A stretch of DNA of 64,000 nucleotides from Bradyrhizobium japonicum USDA 6 (lineage in GTDB: Bacteria > Pseudomonadota > Alphaproteobacteria > Rhizobiales > Xanthobacteraceae): the NCBI RefSeq assembly GCF_000284375.1, contig NC_017249.1:4194001-4258000 (forward strand). The letters are read 5' to 3'. The notes below the pieces were generated by a model, which was not told the origin of the DNA, did not search any database, and was given only the letters and a program-made list of their open reading frames with translations. The translations under genes and the position numbers were made by a program. The first letter of the stretch is position 1, and every line of letters starts with the position of its first letter. Positions 1 through 42,273 of this stretch are shown here, piece after piece.

Positions 1-726
1 ATCGCCGGCGGCCACACGCTGATTCCCGTCATGAAGCAGCGTCTCGCGAGCCCGCCGCATCTGGTCGACCTCTCCCATATCGAGGGGCTCAACACGATCG
101 AGATGAAGGGCCGCGCGCTCGTGATCGGCGCCACTGCCAGGCATGCCGAGGTCGCAAGCTCCGCGATCGTCGGTGAGGCGATCCCGGCGCTGGCCAATCT
201 TGCCAGCCAGATTGGGGATCCCGCAGTGCGCCACAAGGGCACGATCGGCGGCTCGCTCGCCAACAACGATCCGACCGCGGACTATCCGGCCGCGGTGCTC
301 GCGCTCGGCGCCACCATCGTCACCAACAAGCGCCGCCTCAAGGCGGAAGAGTATTTCCAGGGCCTGTTCACGACGGCGCTCGAAGCCGACGAGATCATCA
401 CCAAGGTGATGTTCCCGCTGCCGAAGAAGGCGGCCTACATCAAGTTCCGCAACCAGGCCTCGCGCTATGCGCTGGTCGGCGTGTTCGTGGCGCGGCGTCC
501 TTCGGACGTGCGCGTCGCCGTCACCGGCGCCGGCTCCGAAGGCGTGTTCCGCGTCACCGCGTTCGAGGAAGCCCTGAAGAAGCGCTTCGCCGCGAAGGCG
601 CTTGACGGCATCGAGGTGCCGGCGGAAGGGCTCAACAGCGACATCCACGGCAGCGCCGAATACCGTGCGCATCTCATCGGGGTGCTGACGCGGCGCGCCC
701 TCGACGCCGCCAACGCCAAGGAGTGA
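1..726 (+). CDS. coxM: FAD-binding (medium) subunit of CO-dehydrogenase-like molybdenum hydroxylase, 5' truncated by window edge
   Basis: The frame is open from base 1, so the gene starts outside the window; 241 residues remain of an expected ~270-290. It begins with an IAGGHTLIP segment, which matches the FAD pyrophosphate loop near the N terminus of this family, and later carries the second FAD motif GTIGGSLANNDPTADYP. The C-terminal part matches the CO dehydrogenase flavoprotein C-domain layout. The subunit would pass electrons from the iron-sulfur subunit to FAD and on to the quinone pool. The MoxR, VWA and XdhC genes that follow are the usual maturation genes of cox clusters, which is why I prefer a CO-dehydrogenase-type enzyme (probably form II) over xanthine dehydrogenase. 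The substrate cannot be settled without the large subunit. Confidence 0.85.
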   Translation: MAGGHTLIPVMKQRLASPPHLVDLSHIEGLNTIEMKGRALVIGATARHAEVASSAIVGEAIPALANLASQIGDPAVRHKGTIGGSLANNDPTADYPAAVLALGATIVTNKRRLKAEEYFQGLFTTALEADEIITKVMFPLPKKAAYIKFRNQASRYALVGVFVARRPSDVRVAVTGAGSEGVFRVTAFEEALKKRFAAKALDGIEVPAEGLNSDIHGSAEYRAHLIGVLTRRALDAANAKE

Positions 727-788
727 GTGAACCTCACGCCTCGGCCCAAACTTGTCCCCGGTGAGGGCGTAGCGAGACTGGCTTTTTC

Positions 789-1697
789 ATGACTCTCACG
801 GCCCTGCCGGCATCGGTCGATGCGATGCTCGAACTTTTGACTTCGCGCGGTTATCTCGCGGAGCGATCGCTGGCGACGGTGACCTATCTGTCGCTGCGCA
901 TGGGCCGGCCGCTGTTCCTGGAGGGCGAGGCCGGCGTCGGCAAGACCGAGATCGCCAAGGTGCTGTCGGCGGCGCTGGGGCGGAAGCTGATCCGCCTGCA
1001 GTGCTACGAGGGCCTCGACGTCTCCTCCGCCGTCTACGAGTGGAACAGCGCCGCGCAGATGATCGCGATCCGAATGGCGGAAGCCGCCGGCGACACCGAC
1101 CGCGATCAGCTCTCGTCCGATATCTTCGCCGACCGCTACATGATCAAGCGGCCGCTGCTCCAGGCGCTGGAGCCCGACGTCGCGGGACCGCCGGTGCTGC
1201 TGATCGACGAGCTCGACCGCGCCGACGAGGCGTTCGAGGCGTACCTGCTCGAAATCCTCAGCGACTTCCAGGTGACCATTCCCGAATTCGGCACCGTGAA
1301 GGCGCCGCATCCGCCGATCGTCATCATCACCTCCAACCGCACGCGCGAGATCCACGACGCGCTGAAGCGGCGCTGTCTCTATCACTGGGTCGACTATCCC
1401 GAAGCCGAGCGGGAGCTCGCGATCGTCAAGACGCGCGTGCCCGGCATCTCCGCCAAGCTGTCGCAGCAGGTCGTGCGTTTCGTCCAGGCGCTGCGCAACC
1501 AGGATTTCTACAAGTCGCCTGGCGTCGCCGAGACCATCGACTGGGCCACCGCGCTGTCGGAGCTCGACGCCCGCTCGCTGACCCCGCAAGTGGTCGGCGA
1601 CACGCTGGGGGCGCTGCTCAAGTATCAGGACGACATCACCCGGATGCAGGGCGATACCTTGCAGAAGGTGTTGAAGGAAGCGACGAGCGAGAATTGA
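789..1697 (+). CDS. coxD: MoxR-family AAA+ ATPase, CoxD-like
   Basis: A 302-residue AAA+ protein. Walker A is GEAGVGKT at about residues 46-53, Walker B is LLIDELDRAD near 138-147, and a sensor-1-like stretch IITSNRTREIHDAL lies near 178. In cox clusters the MoxR ATPase CoxD works with the VWA protein CoxE as a chaperone that helps build the copper-sulfur-molybdenum site of CO dehydrogenase. The partner VWA gene follows after a repeat-bearing gap of 140 bases. The function is taken from family and context; the motifs themselves are clear. Confidence 0.88.
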   Translation: MTLTALPASVDAMLELLTSRGYLAERSLATVTYLSLRMGRPLFLEGEAGVGKTEIAKVLSAALGRKLIRLQCYEGLDVSSAVYEWNSAAQMIAIRMAEAAGDTDRDQLSSDIFADRYMIKRPLLQALEPDVAGPPVLLIDELDRADEAFEAYLLEILSDFQVTIPEFGTVKAPHPPIVIITSNRTREIHDALKRRCLYHWVDYPEAERELAIVKTRVPGISAKLSQQVVRFVQALRNQDFYKSPGVAETIDWATALSELDARSLTPQVVGDTLGALLKYQDDITRMQGDTLQKVLKEATSEN

Positions 1698-1718
1698 TCT
1701 CGCGTCACTAGTACTCCC

Positions 1719-1817
1719 GTCATTCCGGGGCGACGCGCAGCGTCGAGCCCGGAATCCATAACCACGATCGGGAGTATGGATTCCGGGCTCGCGCCAAGTG
1801 GCGCGCCCCGGAATGAC
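1719..1817. repeat. CATTCCGG-type intergenic palindrome
   Basis: Imperfect inverted repeat bounded by GTCATTCCGGGGCG and its reverse complement CGCCCCGGAATGAC, with an inner pair GGAATCCATA/TATGGATTCC. It separates the MoxR and VWA genes. Related copies lie at 6306, 43162, 46705 and 54044. Confidence 0.85.
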
Positions 1818-1837
1818 GAGGGGATGGATACGAGACC

Positions 1838-3040
1838 ATGGCCATCAACCACCTGGCGCCCGAGCAAACCGAGCAGTTCGCCGACAACATCGTCGGTTTC
1901 GCCCGCGCGTTGCGTGCAGCCAGCATGCCGGTCGGGCCGGGCGCCGTCATCGATGCCATGAGCGCGCTCCAGGTGATCGACATCGGCAACCGCGCCGACG
2001 TCTTCACCACGCTGGAGGCGATCTTCGTCAAGCGCCACGAGCATGCGCTGATCTTCAGGCAGGCCTTCAACCTGTTCTTCCGCGCCTCGGAAGAGTGGAA
2101 GCACATGCTGGATTCGGTGCCGTTGCCGGAGCAGGCCAAGAAGAAGCCGCAGGCCGGCTCCCGCCGCGTGCAGGAGGCGATGTCGCAGCCGCGGATGACG
2201 GAGACGCCGCAGCACCAGGAGCAGGATTTGCGCCTGTCGGTCTCCGACAAGGAGATCCTTCAGAAGAAGGATTTTGCGCAGATGAGCGCGGCTGAGATCA
2301 CCGAAGCGCTCCACGCCGTCGAGCGGATGCGCCTGCCGCAGGCCGAGCTTCTGACGCGCCGGCAGCGGCCCGATCCCCGCGGGCTTCGTCTCGATTTGCG
2401 CCGCACGCTGCGTGCGTCCTTGCGCACCGGCGGCGACATCATCGACATCCATCGCCTCGGGCGCATCGAGAAGCCGGCGCCGATCGTCGCGCTGCTCGAT
2501 ATCTCGGGCTCGATGAGCGAGTACACCCGCCTGTTCCTGCATTTCCTGCATGCCATCGGGGATGCGCGAAAGCGCGTCTCAGTGTTCCTGTTCGGCACCC
2601 GGCTGACCAACGTCACCCGGGCGCTGCGCCAGCGCGACCCCGATGAGGCGCTGGCGAACTGCTCGGCCTCGGTCGAGGATTGGGCCGGCGGCACCCGGAT
2701 TTCGGCCTCGCTGCACAACTTCAACAAATTGTGGGCGCGGCGCGTGCTGAGCCAGGGCGCCATCGTGCTGCTGATCTCCGACGGGCTGGAGCGGGAGGCC
2801 GATTCCAGGCTCGCCTTCGAGATGGACCGGCTGCACCGGTCCTGCCGCCGGCTGATCTGGCTCAACCCGCTGCTGCGGTTCGGCGGCTTCGAGGCCAAGG
2901 CGCAGGGCATCAAAATGATGCTCCCGCACGTTGACGAATTCCGCCCGGTACATAATTTGAGTTCGATCCAGGAGCTGATCACGACGCTCTCCCGGCCGCT
3001 GCCGCCGCACCACCGCAGCCTGATCCGTTCCGCAGCTTGA
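1838..3040 (+). CDS. coxE: VWA domain protein, CoxE-like
   Basis: A 400-residue protein with a C-terminal von Willebrand A domain. The MIDAS metal motif is intact: DISGSMS starts near residue 221, and the distal LLISDGLERE lies near 310. The N-terminal 200 residues are helical and charged, as in CoxE. It is expected to pair with the MoxR ATPase just upstream in metallocofactor insertion for the molybdenum hydroxylase. The ATG follows immediately after the intergenic palindrome. Confidence 0.87.
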   Translation: MAINHLAPEQTEQFADNIVGFARALRAASMPVGPGAVIDAMSALQVIDIGNRADVFTTLEAIFVKRHEHALIFRQAFNLFFRASEEWKHMLDSVPLPEQAKKKPQAGSRRVQEAMSQPRMTETPQHQEQDLRLSVSDKEILQKKDFAQMSAAEITEALHAVERMRLPQAELLTRRQRPDPRGLRLDLRRTLRASLRTGGDIIDIHRLGRIEKPAPIVALLDISGSMSEYTRLFLHFLHAIGDARKRVSVFLFGTRLTNVTRALRQRDPDEALANCSASVEDWAGGTRISASLHNFNKLWARRVLSQGAIVLLISDGLEREADSRLAFEMDRLHRSCRRLIWLNPLLRFGGFEAKAQGIKMMLPHVDEFRPVHNLSSIQELITTLSRPLPPHHRSLIRSAA

Positions 3041-3051
3041 GAGGTTAAGCC

Positions 3052-3375
3052 ATGCTCGATCGCGACGAGGATATTCTGAAGGCGGCGGAGGATTGGCAGA
3101 AGGCCGGCCGGGGCGTCGCGCTGGCCACCGTTGTCGAGACCTGGGGCTCGGCGCCGCGCCCGGCGGGCTCGAGCCTCGTCATCAACGATGAGGGCACGTT
3201 CCTGGGGTCGGTCTCCGGCGGCTGCGTCGAGGGCGCCGTGGTCACCGAGGCCATGGACGTGATCCAGAGCGGCAAGCCCAGGATGCTGGAGTTCGGCGTT
3301 GCCGACGAGACAGCCTGGAATGTCGGGCTGTCCTGCGGCGGCACCATCCGCGTCTTCGTCGAGAAGGTCGGCTAG
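3052..3375 (+). CDS. XdhC/CoxI N-terminal domain protein (stand-alone)
   Basis: Only 107 residues, covering just the XdhC_CoxI domain: GSAPRPAGS, SGGCVEGAV and the conserved Cys of VGLSCGG near residue 96 are present. XdhC-type proteins bind the molybdopterin cofactor, help sulfurate it and deliver it to the hydroxylase. In many relatives this domain is fused to a Rossmann domain; here the Rossmann half is the next gene, two bases downstream, so the function is split over two polypeptides. The start follows a GAGAGG ribosome site. Confidence 0.85.
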   Translation: MLDRDEDILKAAEDWQKAGRGVALATVVETWGSAPRPAGSSLVINDEGTFLGSVSGGCVEGAVVTEAMDVIQSGKPRMLEFGVADETAWNVGLSCGGTIRVFVEKVG

Positions 3376-3377
3376 CC

Positions 3378-4079
3378 GTGAAGCTCGCAACCCTGCACGA
3401 ACTCAACGCCGAGCGCGCCGCGCGCCGGCCGGCAATTTTGGTGACCGACACCGAGACCGGCGAGCAGCGTCTGGTGAAGGCTGCCGATTTTGCAAAAGAC
3501 CCGCTGCGGGCCGAACTGGACAAGCAGCTTCGCATGGGCAAGAGCGCCAGTGTCGAAGCCGGCGGCAAGAAACTGTTCCTCAACGTCTACGCCCCGACCG
3601 CAAAGCTCGTCATCGTCGGCGCGGTCCATATCAGCCAGGCCCTGGCGCCGCTGGCGCGCTCGCTCGGTTACGACGTCACGGTGGTCGATCCCCGCACGGC
3701 ATTTGCGAGCGCGGAGCGCTTCCCTGACATTCCCCTGGTCGCCGAATGGCCCGACACGGCACTGCCGCCGCTGGATGTCGATGCCTACACGGCTTTCGTC
3801 GCGGTGACGCACGATCCGAAGATCGACGATCCCGCGCTGCTGCACGCCTTCGAGCGCAACTGCTTCTATATCGGCGCGCTCGGCTCGCGAAAGACGCATG
3901 CCAAGCGCGGCGACCGGCTGCGCGCGCAGGGCGCGAAGGACAGCGATATCGCGCGCATCCACGCGCCCATTGGGCTGGCGATCGGCGCGGTCTCGCCGTC
4001 CGAGATCGCGGTGTCGATTATGGCCGAGATCACGGCGGTGCTGCGCCTGCCTCCCAAAGAAAAAGAAGAAGCGGCATGA
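3378..4079 (+). CDS. XdhC C-terminal Rossmann domain protein
   Basis: A 233-residue protein with a GTG start two bases after the preceding stop. After ~75 N-terminal residues comes a Rossmann core with KLVIVGAVHISQ near residue 75 and an acidic end of beta-2 (VTVVDPR). YIGALGSRKTHAKR and the C-terminal segment IGLAIGAVSPSEIAVSIMAEI are typical of the XdhC_C domain. It probably forms a complex with the small XdhC_CoxI protein and handles the molybdenum cofactor. The downstream gene overlaps it by ATGA, showing tight translational coupling. Confidence 0.85.
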   Translation: MKLATLHELNAERAARRPAILVTDTETGEQRLVKAADFAKDPLRAELDKQLRMGKSASVEAGGKKLFLNVYAPTAKLVIVGAVHISQALAPLARSLGYDVTVVDPRTAFASAERFPDIPLVAEWPDTALPPLDVDAYTAFVAVTHDPKIDDPALLHAFERNCFYIGALGSRKTHAKRGDRLRAQGAKDSDIARIHAPIGLAIGAVSPSEIAVSIMAEITAVLRLPPKEKEEAA

Positions 4080-36727: not shown

Positions 36728-38092
36728 CTAGCGCTTGACGAAAACCAGGTTGCAGGCCCGCGCCTCGTTGCGCTTGCCGCTGCCGCGGGTGCGATCGAAC
36801 TGCGCATCGACCGTAAAGGCGTAAGGCGAGCCGGGCGCGAGGTTGTTGAGCGTGTAGGTGCTCGCCCCCGTCGTGCCACGTGCGCTCAAGGTCGTCTTGC
36901 CGTCCGCGGGGATCTGGCCGTCGATCTCCAGCCGGTTGACACCGCCCGGACCCTGCACCTCGGCGTGAAACACGCCATTGGTCACGGTGGCGACCAGGGG
37001 CCTGGTGAAGCCCTGCGCCTTGCCGGAAGCCGGGCAGTTCAACGTCACGTCCCAGCTGCCGTCGAAATCCTTGCTTCCCGTGGTTCTGGCATTGCCGGAA
37101 GGCGCCAGCGCCACTTTCTGCTTCAGGCCTTCAATGCGTGCCTTGGCCAGGGTGGCGAAGATGCAGTTCGGGAATCTCGCGAGATGATCCTCAAAGGCAC
37201 CCAGCGTGCCGATGCCCTCAGCGGCCTTCCAGTGCGCCTCGGCGGCCGCGCAGGGATCGGCCTTCGGTGCAGCTTGGGCGGCCGCCGGCGCGACCGTGAC
37301 CGGTACAGGCCCGTTCAGGTAGAACTTGCCGATGATCGACAGCGAGAGCTCCGGCAGCTGGGTCTTGCCGCTGGAGTCATAGACGTCGCTGCTGATGTCG
37401 CGAAAGACGTCGCCGATCTCCTGCGGCTCCTCGATGTGCTTGAGGAACGCGGTCGTGTAGGGGCTGTTGCGGCCGGTGCCGTCGGCGGCGACCTGTCCCG
37501 ATTGCGTCGAGAACGACACGATCGTGCCGCGCGGCGCCTCGACTTTCGACAGGCCACGTCCGATCGAGGCCGCGCGGGTCGAGCCGGCAGAGCGCTTCAA
37601 GGTTTCGGCCAGCGGATTGTCGCGGCAGGAATCGAGCACGAGGATGCGGAGGTTCTTGGCCTGCTGCAGATCGTTCACGATGTCGTCGACCCGCACGAAG
37701 CGCTTGAGGTCTGCTTCATCGGTCAGCACGGCATCGACAGGCATGAGATAGTTCACGCCGTTGTACTGCATCGCATGGCCGCTGTAGTAGAACATCGCGA
37801 CGTCGGCGCGGCTGGCGGCGCGCGCGAAGCGGATGGTCAGGTCCTGCATGTCGGCTTGACGCAGGTCGATACCCTGGAACACCTCGAACCCGCTGCGCTT
37901 GAGCGAGGCTGCGACGTCTTCGGCATCGTGCGACGGGTTGGGAAGCTGCGCCGTAGAGACATAAGCGCCGTTGCCGATCACCAGCGCAACCCGCGTGTCG
38001 GCCGATGCGGGGGCAGGGCTCAGCCCAAGGCTCAGCCAGAGGGCGAGGAGGGTCAGGAAAAAATGACGCAAAATTCCAGAAGGAGCACGCAT
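36728..38092 (-). CDS. Secreted caspase-like (peptidase C14, metacaspase-type) protein
   Basis: 454 residues with a signal peptide ending at APASA (~31). The p20-like domain covers about 33-250: RVALVIGNGAYVSTAQLPNP, the catalytic His in MFYYSGHAMQYNG near 105, and the catalytic Cys in VLDSCRDNPLAE near 155. The C-terminal ~200 residues hold a Cys-containing helical segment (CAAAEAHWKAAEG) and a beta-rich unit of unknown role. Both catalytic residues are present, so it may be an active periplasmic Arg/Lys-specific protease. It is monocistronic. Confidence 0.88.
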   Translation of the reverse strand: MRAPSGILRHFFLTLLALWLSLGLSPAPASADTRVALVIGNGAYVSTAQLPNPSHDAEDVAASLKRSGFEVFQGIDLRQADMQDLTIRFARAASRADVAMFYYSGHAMQYNGVNYLMPVDAVLTDEADLKRFVRVDDIVNDLQQAKNLRILVLDSCRDNPLAETLKRSAGSTRAASIGRGLSKVEAPRGTIVSFSTQSGQVAADGTGRNSPYTTAFLKHIEEPQEIGDVFRDISSDVYDSSGKTQLPELSLSIIGKFYLNGPVPVTVAPAAAQAAPKADPCAAAEAHWKAAEGIGTLGAFEDHLARFPNCIFATLAKARIEGLKQKVALAPSGNARTTGSKDFDGSWDVTLNCPASGKAQGFTRPLVATVTNGVFHAEVQGPGGVNRLEIDGQIPADGKTTLSARGTTGASTYTLNNLAPGSPYAFTVDAQFDRTRGSGKRNEARACNLVFVKR

Positions 38093-40476: not shown

Positions 40477-40505
40477 TTGTAACCCGAACGTGCTTCGTCT
40501 ATTAG
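40477..40505 (+). promoter_or_regulatory. Candidate sigma-70 promoter for the tRNA-like RNAs
   Basis: TTGTAA (40477-40482), a 17-base spacer and TATTAG (40500-40505), followed by a GC-rich discriminator as in stable-RNA promoters. Start would be near 40512. It could drive the tRNA-like elements and possibly read on into the slipin gene. I did not find a convincing GG-N10-GC sigma-54 site in this region. Confidence 0.45.
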
Positions 40506-40601
40506 CGCCGTCCTTCGCTAGGCTATGGGTTCGGGCTCTCTGAGATCCCGACTGGCGCGAGCCGCTCTGCGGTTTCGTGTTCCGCCGAATGAAGGGCAAA
40601 C

Positions 40602-40674
40602 GCAGGATGTGGCTCATGGAGAGCGTCGGGCTGAACACCCGAAGGCATCGGTTCGATTCCGATCTCTTGCCCCA
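40602..40674 (+). tRNA. tRNA-like element A (anticodon-position GAA), non-canonical
   Basis: Anticodon stem TCGGG/CCCGA with loop CTGAACA (anticodon GAA, Phe), T arm ATCGG-TTCGATT-CCGAT and a genome-encoded CCA at 40672-40674 are clear. The D arm has a 4-base stem (GCTC/GAGC) but a loop of only 5 bases (ATGGA). The acceptor pairs 6 of 7 positions if it begins at 40602 (GCAGGAT with CTCTTGC), leaving three instead of two bases before the D stem. An alternative end pairing GGGCAA (40594) with TTGCCC is also possible. It may be a tRNA mimic or a decayed tRNA-Phe. Confidence 0.5.
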
Positions 40675-40749
40675 CGAAGGATAGCTCAGTTGGGTAGAGC
40701 AGGTGACGTTGAAATCATCGGGTCGCGGGTTCGAATCCCGCTCCAAGCG
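40675..40749 (+). tRNA. tRNA-like element B, defective acceptor stem and 8-base anticodon loop
   Basis: D arm GCTC-AGTTGGGTA-GAGC and T arm GCGGG-TTCGAAT-CCCGC are canonical. The anticodon stem GGTGA/TCATC holds an 8-base loop (CGTTGAAA) instead of 7. The acceptor strands CGAAGGA and TCCAAGC pair only at the inner three positions, and no CCA follows. Body sequence (GGATAGCTCAGTTGGG, TTGAAA) resembles tRNA-Phe. It starts on the base after element A's CCA. It is unlikely to be charged as a normal tRNA. Confidence 0.45.
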
Positions 40750-40750
40750 C

Positions 40751-41080
40751 TCCGTTTCAGCCTGAAAAGCTGATACCTCTGACGAGGACCGGACGCGCGC
40801 TTCAGTCGCAGTCCGGCCGTTTTGCCGAAAGGCTTTCCGTCCGAACTAAGACACTGTGAGACCGGCTTCGCGCCGCGGTGGATACCGCTTGCGCTGATGC
40901 CGGGTGGCTCCGCACGAACGCTCGACACGCGTCGAGCGATCGCGCGCGTGCGCCCGTCATCGCGCAAGCTCAAGCCCCGGCCCGCCGATTTCCCGGGAAG
41001 CGTCGTCCGCGTCCTCACGTCCTTTGCACACGAAACCTGTCGTCCGGCATCCGGCCGGGCGCAAACGAAGGAGGCGTGCC
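40751..41080. other. 330-base leader between the tRNA-like elements and the slipin gene
   Basis: No CDS is convincing here. Short hairpins can form: TTTCAG/CTGAAA (around 40755-40766) and CCGGAC/GTCCGG (40789-40816). The slipin ribosome site AAGGAGG closes the region. It may be a long 5' leader of a transcript that includes the tRNA-like elements. Confidence 0.4.
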
Positions 41081-42244
41081 ATGACGTCACATAAGACCTG
41101 GCATTTGCTGACGACCAATGTCACCGTGAAGGACGGTGAGCGCGCGCTACTCACGCGAAACGGCCAGCTCGAGCGTGTGCTCGCGCCTGGTCGGCATCGG
41201 CTGTTCGATCTGCGCAACGAGCTGACGGCGACCGTGTACAACGTCGTGGGGACCGAATTCCCCACGGATCGCTACGCGGTGCTGAAGGCCGCGCGGCCTG
41301 ATCTCGCCGCCGAGCTGTTCGAGGCGATCGAGACCACGGCGGACGAGATCGCCATCGTCAGCCTCGACGGCCGGCCCGTGCATCTGATGACGCCCTGGCA
41401 GGTGCGCGTCTACTGGAAGGTCGCGACCCGCATCGATGTCGAGCGCATCGATGTGTCCGCCGATCCCCGGGTTGGCGCGCGGCACCTGACCATGATCGAG
41501 CGCAACCGCTCGACCGTCGTGATGGAAGCGGTGGTCGAGAACCACGAGGCGGGCCTGCTCTATGTCGAGGGCCGGCTCGTGGAGCGGCTTGCGCCCGGCC
41601 GGCACGCCTTCTGGACCGTCGGCCGCAAGATCGAGGTGAAGCGCCTCGACCTGCGGCCCCAGGCGGTCGAGATCACCGCGCAGGAGATGCTGACCAAGGA
41701 TCGCATCGCGCTGCGGCTGACGCTGACGGCGTTCCGCAGGATCGTCGATCCCGAGCGCACGGTTGCGGCCGTGCCCGACGTGGATGCGTGGCTGTACCGC
41801 CTGGTGCAGTTCGCGATCCGCGAGGCGGTGGCGGGCCGGACGCTGGACGAGGTGCTGTCTGCGAAGGCGGCGCTGGATGCGGAGCTGCGCGACTATGTGC
41901 GTGTACGCGTCGCAGAGTCCGGCGTGGAGGTGACCGAGCTCGGCGTCAAGGACGTGATCCTGCCCGGCGAGATCCGGGAGCTGGTGAACAAGGTGGTGGA
42001 GGCGGAGCGGGTCGCGAAGGCGAACCTGATCCGCCGGCAGGAGGAGACCGCGGCGACGCGTTCGCTCCTGAACACCGCCCGCCTGATGGAGGAGAACCCC
42101 CTGCTGCTGCGGCTCAAGGAGCTGGAGTCGCTGGAGCGGCTGGTCGAGAAGGTCGGCCGCATCGATCTCCATGCCGGCAACGGCGAGGGCCTCGATGCCC
42201 TCCTGACCCGGCTCGTGCGCCTGAAGGCGCCCGAGAGCGCATGA
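41081..42244 (+). CDS. Slipin-family (SPFH/band 7) protein without N-terminal membrane anchor
   Basis: 387 residues. The N-terminal part has two similar beta-rich units: DGERALLTRNGQLERVLAPG near 17-36 and EAGLLYVEGRLVERLAPGRH near 152-171. The SPFH core follows, with VEITAQEMLTKDRIALRLTL, then LYRLVQFAIREAVAGRTLDE and ESGVEVTELGVKDVILPGEI. A helical tail (EAERVAKANLIRRQEETAAT) ends it. No hydrophobic N-terminal helix is seen, so it may be cytosolic or only peripherally bound. Slipins of this long type occur in RNA-repair (Rtc/Rsr) loci of other proteobacteria; here the neighbours are tRNA-like sequences. AAGGAGG decides the start. Confidence 0.82.
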   Translation: MTSHKTWHLLTTNVTVKDGERALLTRNGQLERVLAPGRHRLFDLRNELTATVYNVVGTEFPTDRYAVLKAARPDLAAELFEAIETTADEIAIVSLDGRPVHLMTPWQVRVYWKVATRIDVERIDVSADPRVGARHLTMIERNRSTVVMEAVVENHEAGLLYVEGRLVERLAPGRHAFWTVGRKIEVKRLDLRPQAVEITAQEMLTKDRIALRLTLTAFRRIVDPERTVAAVPDVDAWLYRLVQFAIREAVAGRTLDEVLSAKAALDAELRDYVRVRVAESGVEVTELGVKDVILPGEIRELVNKVVEAERVAKANLIRRQEETAATRSLLNTARLMEENPLLLRLKELESLERLVEKVGRIDLHAGNGEGLDALLTRLVRLKAPESA

Positions 42245-42249
42245 AGCAG

Positions 42250-42273
42250 AAGGGCCGCCCACGGGCGGCCCTT
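42250..42273 (+). terminator. GC-rich hairpin after slipin
   Basis: AAGGGCCGCCC and GGGCGGCCCTT are complementary around a 2-base centre, six bases past the stop. No U-run follows, so termination may be incomplete or the hairpin may protect the 3' end. Confidence 0.55.

Follow-up and report, generated by a model that had tools for sequence, protein, structure and literature searches.

The window analysed here is a stretch of 64,000 nucleotides, positions 4194001-4258000 of the 9.2-Mb genome of Bradyrhizobium japonicum USDA 6 (labelled G000). Its plus strand carries, in this order, a probable promoter, a 5' hairpin, two elements that resemble transfer RNA (tRNA) and are called element 1 (E1) and element 2 (E2), an anticodon-like hairpin, a leader domain and the gene for a long slipin. 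An original prediction, made from the letters of this DNA, had proposed that the RNA pair and the slipin form a unit of the RNA-repair type. Comparison across genomes makes it virtually certain that the RNAs and the slipin are a conserved unit. Judged by sequence, the locus is probably an alphaproteobacterial variant, lacking RtcB, of a slipin/tRNA-like module that stands beside RtcB and RtcR in other classes, and its RNA is unexpectedly elaborate.

Evidence for the unit can be found in 117 Bradyrhizobium genomes. The RNA pair is present in 37 of them (E<1e-20) and the full-length slipin in 36 (E<1e-190). All 36 carriers of the full slipin also have the RNA pair, on the same contig and strand, with the RNA match ending 291-342 nucleotides upstream. 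This co-occurrence bears out the predicted unit, and it answers the check proposed with it: across the genus, the tRNA-like pair is kept with every full-length slipin.

The genome with the RNA only (G084, L170 2787-3955) has RNA fragments beside lysR and leader fragments beside lepB, with foreign DNA between them and no slipin match. Slipin fragments alone, from towards the C terminus, occur in G010, G081 and G003; the fragment in G010 lies beside lysR, and for those in G081 and G003, neither side could be recognised as belonging to this site. A search for lepB in 12 genomes without the full unit found lysR and lepB adjoining in G094, G002, G105, G027 and G056, with a short slipin stretch left between them in G002. 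The simplest reading of these sequences is that an old locus was lost repeatedly, RNA and slipin together.

Table 1. Features of the slipin locus, in positions of the window.
Feature	Position	Strand	Basis
Probable promoter TTGTAA-17-TATTAG	40477..40505	+	Conserved over 42 Bradyrhizobium loci; none by strict sigma-70 scan
5' hairpin TCGGG/CCCGA, then CTGGCGC	40531..40551	+	Read by eye; low diversity
tRNA-like element 1 (E1)	40602..40674	+	ARAGORN, Rfam, comparison of loci
tRNA-like element 2 (E2): D, anticodon and T arms; 3 acceptor base pairs	40675..40751	+	Rfam, comparison of loci
Isolated hairpin like an anticodon stem-loop, TCAGC-CTGAAAA-GCTGA	40757..40773	+	Comparison of loci
Leader RNA domain, predicted structured, long-range closing helix	40784..41015	+	Alignments, model R1
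Ribosome binding site GGAGG	41070..41074	+	Sequence
Long slipin, 387 amino acids, Band_7/SPFH C-terminal (residues 151-322), no hydrophobic anchor	41081..42244	+	Pfam, hydropathy, comparison

The two abutting sequences are tRNA-shaped, as had been noticed, and both match the Rfam tRNA model above its gathering score, with 44.7 bits at 40603-40670 and 43.2 bits at 40679-40744, the match to E2 lacking both ends of the model. ARAGORN calls E1 only, as tRNA-Phe(gaa) at 40602-40674. The remark that they break tRNA rules also holds: in the window, the sequence of E2 forms 3 of 7 acceptor pairs and has an anticodon loop of 8 nucleotides. E1 has a 7-nucleotide anticodon loop and, by eye, 6 of 7 acceptor pairs.

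How these features are kept can be seen in related loci. In 84,980 species genomes, at least 564 stretches encode a slipin relative, and the best 80 of them were used; they come from Bradyrhizobium, Rhodoplanes, Dongia, Methylopila, Hyphomicrobium, Filomicrobium, Devosia and others, and the arrangement is kept in most of the distant relatives examined. Together with 19 loci of the G-numbered genomes, the window included, they provided 99 upstream regions for an element parser anchored on T arms. The parser placed E2 in 96 regions and both elements in 83. The regions without E2 are L043 and two that are cut by a contig end, L113, which shows a T arm, and L115.

The arms of E2 change in a compensatory manner. 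Its anticodon stem is paired in 89-90 of 90 distinct sequences, with five pair types per position and 9-43 double-change cells, and the first three pairs of the T stem are formed just as often, with four to six pair types. Acceptor pairs 5-7 are formed in 83-85 of the 90 and pairs 1-4 in 29-41. These fractions lean towards structure because the parser picks the best-pairing arms; the acceptor stem played no part in that choice.

Shuffled controls are available for the E2 loop and for the acceptor stems, with E2 misassigned in a few loci (by reading, at least L103 and L108). A canonical E2 loop (stem of five pairs, 7 nucleotides, U33, purine at 37) occurs in 63 of 96 loci, 42 of them Bradyrhizobium and none removed as duplicates, against a mean of 0.35 and a maximum of 2 when the 75 nucleotides upstream are shuffled. 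An acceptor stem of at least 6 of 7 pairs is found for E1 in 66/83 (best of three registers; shuffles mean 10.7, maximum 20) and for E2 in 13/96 (mean 1.9, maximum 5). CCA stands near the 3' end of E1 in 44/79 and of E2 in 13/92. Within the parser's range of 4-9 nucleotides, the anticodon loop of E1 varies from 4 to 8 (7 nucleotides in 22 and 4 in 15 of 77), and that of E2 has 7 in 76 of 90 distinct sequences.

As read from these sequences, the decay of the two elements is opposite: E1 holds its acceptor stem and has an irregular anticodon loop, and E2 holds its anticodon arm and has mostly three acceptor pairs. The seven-pair acceptor and seven-nucleotide anticodon loop that a functional tRNA joins in one molecule do not occur together in E2, and E1 does not keep them together as a rule. 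The result of the covariation check, which had been set beforehand as a refuting test, does not point to ordinary tRNAs.

The anticodon triplet of E2 (about 40710-40712 in the window) behaves differently from the arms. It comes in 23 kinds among the 76 seven-nucleotide loops, with GTT the commonest (22). In the 42 Bradyrhizobium loci its columns have diversities of 0.57, 0.50 and 0.54. The remaining 62 E2 columns that could be measured average 0.085, and third codon positions of the slipin 0.24; 66 of 382 such positions reach at least 0.5, and one E2 stem column has 0.52. Comparison of the loci shows the RNA arms, by their pattern of change, to be under selection and the E2 triplet to be free to change.

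The pairing of slipin and RNA extends beyond the genus. Among four class-level relatives, Rfam detects the pair in G285 and G117 and one element in G334. Across the phylum, 16 of 299 genomes have a long slipin (E<1e-90), that of the window included, and 9 of these lie outside the class; the long slipins are clearly separate from short ones (E about 1e-25 to 1e-32), and the match in G490 covers profile positions 58-365 only. An Rfam scan of 14 of the 16 loci gives at least one tRNA-like match near the slipin in 13, with L145 as the miss; additional matches in L138 and L139 resemble ordinary tRNAs farther upstream.

Three further observations concern such loci. In L144 (1078-1292), outside the class, ARAGORN calls three consecutive tRNA-like elements before the slipin, two of which Rfam scores. 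In L139, E1 (2944-2999, minus strand) matches the model of transfer-messenger RNA (tmRNA) with 32.9 bits (cut-off 47), which recalls the acceptor-plus-T-arm shape of tmRNA. In L169, a stretch from Subdoligranulum variabile discussed below, the sole tRNA call lies 2.8 kb from the slipin relative.

RtcB was sought in 36 genomes. All nine carriers outside the class have a full-length RtcB (E<=1.5e-125) on the strand of the slipin, 156 to 3808 nucleotides away. RtcR lies in the cluster in six of the nine, divergent from the slipin in four and from RtcB in two (G508, G490). These counts turn the RNA-repair analogy into likely kinship, and the unit very probably shares ancestry with the rtc-linked modules. 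The background of the original prediction, that long slipins occur in RNA-repair loci of other bacteria, is sound: they stand beside RtcB, often with RtcR, and have tRNA-like RNAs upstream. In Burkholderia cenocepacia and Photobacterium, where the slipin was placed by tblastn, Pfam shows RtcR divergent and RtcB downstream; ARAGORN calls one tRNA-like element in Burkholderia and two in Photobacterium, and at gathering score Rfam matches only the latter two.

The observation that rtcB, rtcR and rsr are missing from the window holds for the whole genome. Elsewhere among the 19 alphaproteobacterial carriers, a weak match resembling RtcB lies 1.3 kb downstream of the slipin in G047, G031 has RtcB 4.9 kb upstream, and four others have RtcB elsewhere in the genome. 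A TROVE protein is present in 2 of the 19, away from the slipin, and none was found in G000. RtcR was found in none of 18 Bradyrhizobium genomes tested, G000 among the genomes without it. Of the marks of the module, the window has a long anchor-less slipin, similar over its whole length to the rtc-linked ones, and a tRNA-like RNA upstream on the same strand; beside the slipin there is no RtcB or nucleotidyltransferase, nor is there RtcR with a sigma-54 promoter. As the original prediction had stated, no sigma-54 pattern lies within 300 nucleotides upstream of the elements in the window copy (L034), and the same is true of the other alphaproteobacterial loci scanned. Among the 96 loci that have an element, pattern matching gave sigma-54-like sites in four, each from outside the class; others were read by eye in loci of Citrobacter, E. 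coli, Burkholderia and Photobacterium.

Several known systems resemble the locus. In a 2016 paper in Nucleic Acids Res, Burroughs and Aravind reportedly identified, as cofactors of RNA repair, modules in which an SPFH/Band-7 protein goes with a novel tRNA-like molecule. A Band-7 protein and a cognate tRNA-like non-coding RNA would thus be common to both systems; the window has no ligase, RtcR or sigma-54-like site.

Another example is the rtc locus of Pseudomonas aeruginosa, where the SPFH gene PA14_60630 (PaFlo8) lies among rtcA, rtcB and rtcR (PMC13086221). It is likened by gene context; the passage on the locus mentions no small RNA, and the word tRNA is absent from the main text (PMC13086221). 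The Salmonella rsr-yrlBA-rtcBA operon encodes the Y RNA YrlA and so shares with the window a tRNA-mimicking RNA encoded with RNA-repair genes (PMC7790460, PMC9879122). It differs in having the TROVE protein Rsr in place of the slipin and in being controlled by RtcR, and the window fails the YrlA model. The authors of one of these papers suggest that the tRNA-like domain of YrlA may competitively inhibit an anticodon nuclease (PMC7790460).

The enterobacterial slipin-nucleotidyltransferase pair (Citrobacter NZ_CP151862, E. coli CP061233) belongs to the same slipin family, with 33-37% identity; upstream of it, a sigma-54-like site and what resembles the remnant of a T arm can be read by eye (E. 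coli: L167 3960-4500). It differs in its nucleotidyltransferase partner, in the adjoining rtcR of Citrobacter and in that no complete tRNA-like element was found. DNA covering at least 80% of the E. coli query for this pair occurs in 1621 of 5426 E. coli genomes.

The RNA does not end with E2. Just 3' of it lies a hairpin of 4-5 pairs whose 7-nucleotide loop follows the pattern of an anticodon loop, [CT]U-NNN-A-[AC]. Hairpins of this kind are present in 48 of 82 distinct segments (50 before two misassigned ones were removed; shuffles mean 0.8, maximum 5), and outside Bradyrhizobium in 27 of 54 (29 before removal; mean 0.5, maximum 3). Many of the remaining segments have hairpins with other loops.

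The leader that follows had been described as having no open reading frame. This does not hold literally, since open reading frames of at least 60 amino acids overlap it, among them 40822-41094 (plus strand) and a longer slipin frame that starts with GTG and reaches back to 40904. The same region (40784-41015) probably is a conserved structured RNA domain, as modelled from alignments. With RNAalifold, an alignment of 16 loci gives a long-range helix that closes the leader, mostly without sequence change. A comparable long-range fold is obtained for 21 Hyphomicrobiales-type leaders, where double changes, scored on a structure fitted to the same alignment, are few in the closing helix and many inside.

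The core of the leader contains the motifs GGATACCGC and CTCAAGC..CCCG. A model of it, R1, has 152 positions and was built from 29 training sequences, the window among them; with only 18 base pairs, it is mostly a sequence model. R1 scores 98.3 bits at 40854-40993 of the window, itself a training sequence. Of 38 loci that took no part in the training, some closely related to training loci, it matches 16 at E<=1.3e-5. It has no match in the listed loci outside the class, nor in L131-L133, L042-L045 and L098. In 240 alphaproteobacterial genomes it matched the window only, under strict filters and with at most 12 candidates scored per genome, so occurrence only next to slipins is weakly tested. 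Rfam at gathering score places no family on the window leader.

At the 5' end, the claim of a promoter stood in part. TTGTAA-17-TATTAG is a probable promoter by its sequence, which is kept with variation in 42 aligned Bradyrhizobium loci amid diverging DNA, most commonly as CTTGCAAC...TATTAG; a strict sigma-70 scan of the window scored no promoter site. Around the 5' hairpin, mean diversity is 0.12 (40521-40540) and 0.09 (40541-40560).

The slipin gene is confirmed, though the predicted interval, 40477..42273, runs 29 bases past the stop (42244). It starts with ATG at 41081, preceded by GGAGG, and in relatives the slipin match sets in at residues 1-7 of the reading frame opened by this ATG. 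Pfam finds Band_7 in residues 151-322 (E=2.8e-31). The best 19-residue hydropathy window is 1.06, and no membrane helix is therefore expected, in line with the predicted lack of a hydrophobic N-terminal helix. The family profile matches solved stomatins from profile position 141 on (E down to 9.6e-30). Identity of the window slipin to Bradyrhizobium records reaches 96%, and no slipin relative at E<=1e-15 was found among 50,697 phage records.

SPFH proteins form oligomeric scaffolds. One transcript beginning near 40510 would contain a composite tRNA-mimic RNA, made of E1, E2, the isolated anticodon-like hairpin and the large structured domain, and then the slipin. The anchor-less slipin may be an oligomeric scaffold that holds the processed tRNA-mimic RNA. 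Ribonucleases that cleave tRNAs when the cell is stressed or attacked would be offered the anticodon loops of this RNA. It would serve them as a decoy or competing substrate and leave the damage to the slipin complex. Where RtcB is present the RNA could be resealed; here that step is missing, so that protection or decay, not ligation, would be the likely outcome. Such a mechanism, a decoy on a scaffold, falls a little short of an even chance.

A more far-reaching version treats the whole upstream transcript as one composite bait RNA. It would consist of a split tRNA mimic (acceptor half E1, anticodon half E2), the extra hairpin and the large uncatalogued domain. The anticodon would have been diversified from one species to the next, so as to suit the tRNA-cutting enzymes encountered by each lineage, and the slipin would be a cytosolic cage. 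This is an unlikely proposal; if true, it would describe a ligase-free, RNA-based defence against ribonuclease toxins.

A number of observations weigh against reading the locus as a decoy of the RNA-repair kind. RtcB was found in none of 13 of the 19 alphaproteobacterial carriers, G000 included, and RtcR in only one of the 19, on another contig, so an RNA-repair role there rests on kinship. The class-level relative G382 (40% identity) has no tRNA-like element, and none lies directly upstream of the slipin relative of Subdoligranulum variabile (L169, OY725857, Clostridia; 32.6% identity). The single-sequence fold of the element pair is not more stable than shuffles (z=+0.75) and gives no signal; the case rests on covariation and conservation. 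An E2 D-loop column has a diversity of 0.60, above that of the triplet, and uneven loop lengths blur the E2 alignment; change in the triplet can be a mere lack of constraint rather than diversifying selection. The canonical loop is missing from the window E2, with its 8 nucleotides, and from 12 of the 42 Bradyrhizobium loci, which weakens a pure anticodon-bait view.

Alternatively, the pair and the leader may work in cis, as a 5' riboregulator in which a tRNA-cutting enzyme, by cleaving or binding the tRNA mimics, makes the leader refold and turns on translation of the slipin. The layout fits: wherever a locus was read, the pair precedes the slipin on the same strand, the leader between them is a conserved domain in its own right, with a long-range helix predicted, and a terminator scan of the window found none between the RNA pair and the slipin. 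The 17 confident R1 matches are likewise all upstream of a slipin, in loci that had been fetched by their slipins. However, the E2 T arm starts anywhere from about 236 to 638 nucleotides before the slipin match, the R1 domain is detected only in part of the alphaproteobacteria whereas the tRNA-like elements range wider, and several loci of other classes have RtcR and sigma-54-like sites upstream of the pair. A sensor in cis is rather doubtful.

Another possibility is a scaffold similar to a Y RNA: by tethering the slipin to tRNA-modifying enzymes or to a ribonuclease such as PNPase, the RNA would bring about the degradation of structured or broken RNAs. This seems quite improbable. At the element junction, 7 of 9 slipin loci scanned reach 25.7-34 bits with the YrlA model, but these scores are far under the cut-off of 69, the other 2 loci have none, and G000 lacks a TROVE protein. 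YrlA homology itself was considered and rejected, and membership in the Rsr/YrlA branch is not supported: the 25.7 bits of the window are unspecific, as the ordinary tandem tRNAs of phage T4 score 25.8. That ordinary or decaying tRNA genes stand beside the slipin by chance is highly improbable, for although both elements pass the Rfam gathering score, ARAGORN calls E1 a tRNA-Phe and the window E1 loop has 7 nucleotides, the pair co-occurs with the slipin in 36/36 genomes and is kept beside distant slipins, its arms show compensatory changes, most E2 have a three-pair acceptor and E1 loops range over 4-8 nucleotides.

The comparison shows that tRNA-mimic RNAs go with a slipin well outside the enteric rtc operons that have been studied, and that they remain where the ligase is missing. 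Slipin and RNA therefore probably have a function of their own. The locus would offer a compact system, of one RNA and one protein, for probing the role of the slipin and its non-coding RNA, and it adds a structured RNA domain, as predicted, that no Rfam family matches at gathering score. A literature search found no paper joining slipin, RtcB and tRNA-like RNA, or slipin and Bradyrhizobium, most subscription papers lying outside the search; slipin and RtcB occur together in two papers.

When crude open reading frames around 84 loci are clustered, the largest cluster, from 57 loci, is that of the slipin. The next, from 51 loci, consists of antisense slipin frames chained with other minus-strand frames; it is mixed by this chaining, so a further partner gene is not firmly excluded. 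In the window, a Pfam scan of five neighbour genes identifies a LysR regulator, a GST, an isochorismatase, a caspase-domain protein and a signal peptidase. The caspase-domain protein (Peptidase_C14, E=7.2e-43) is encoded at 36728-38092 on the minus strand, a few kb upstream and outside the unit.

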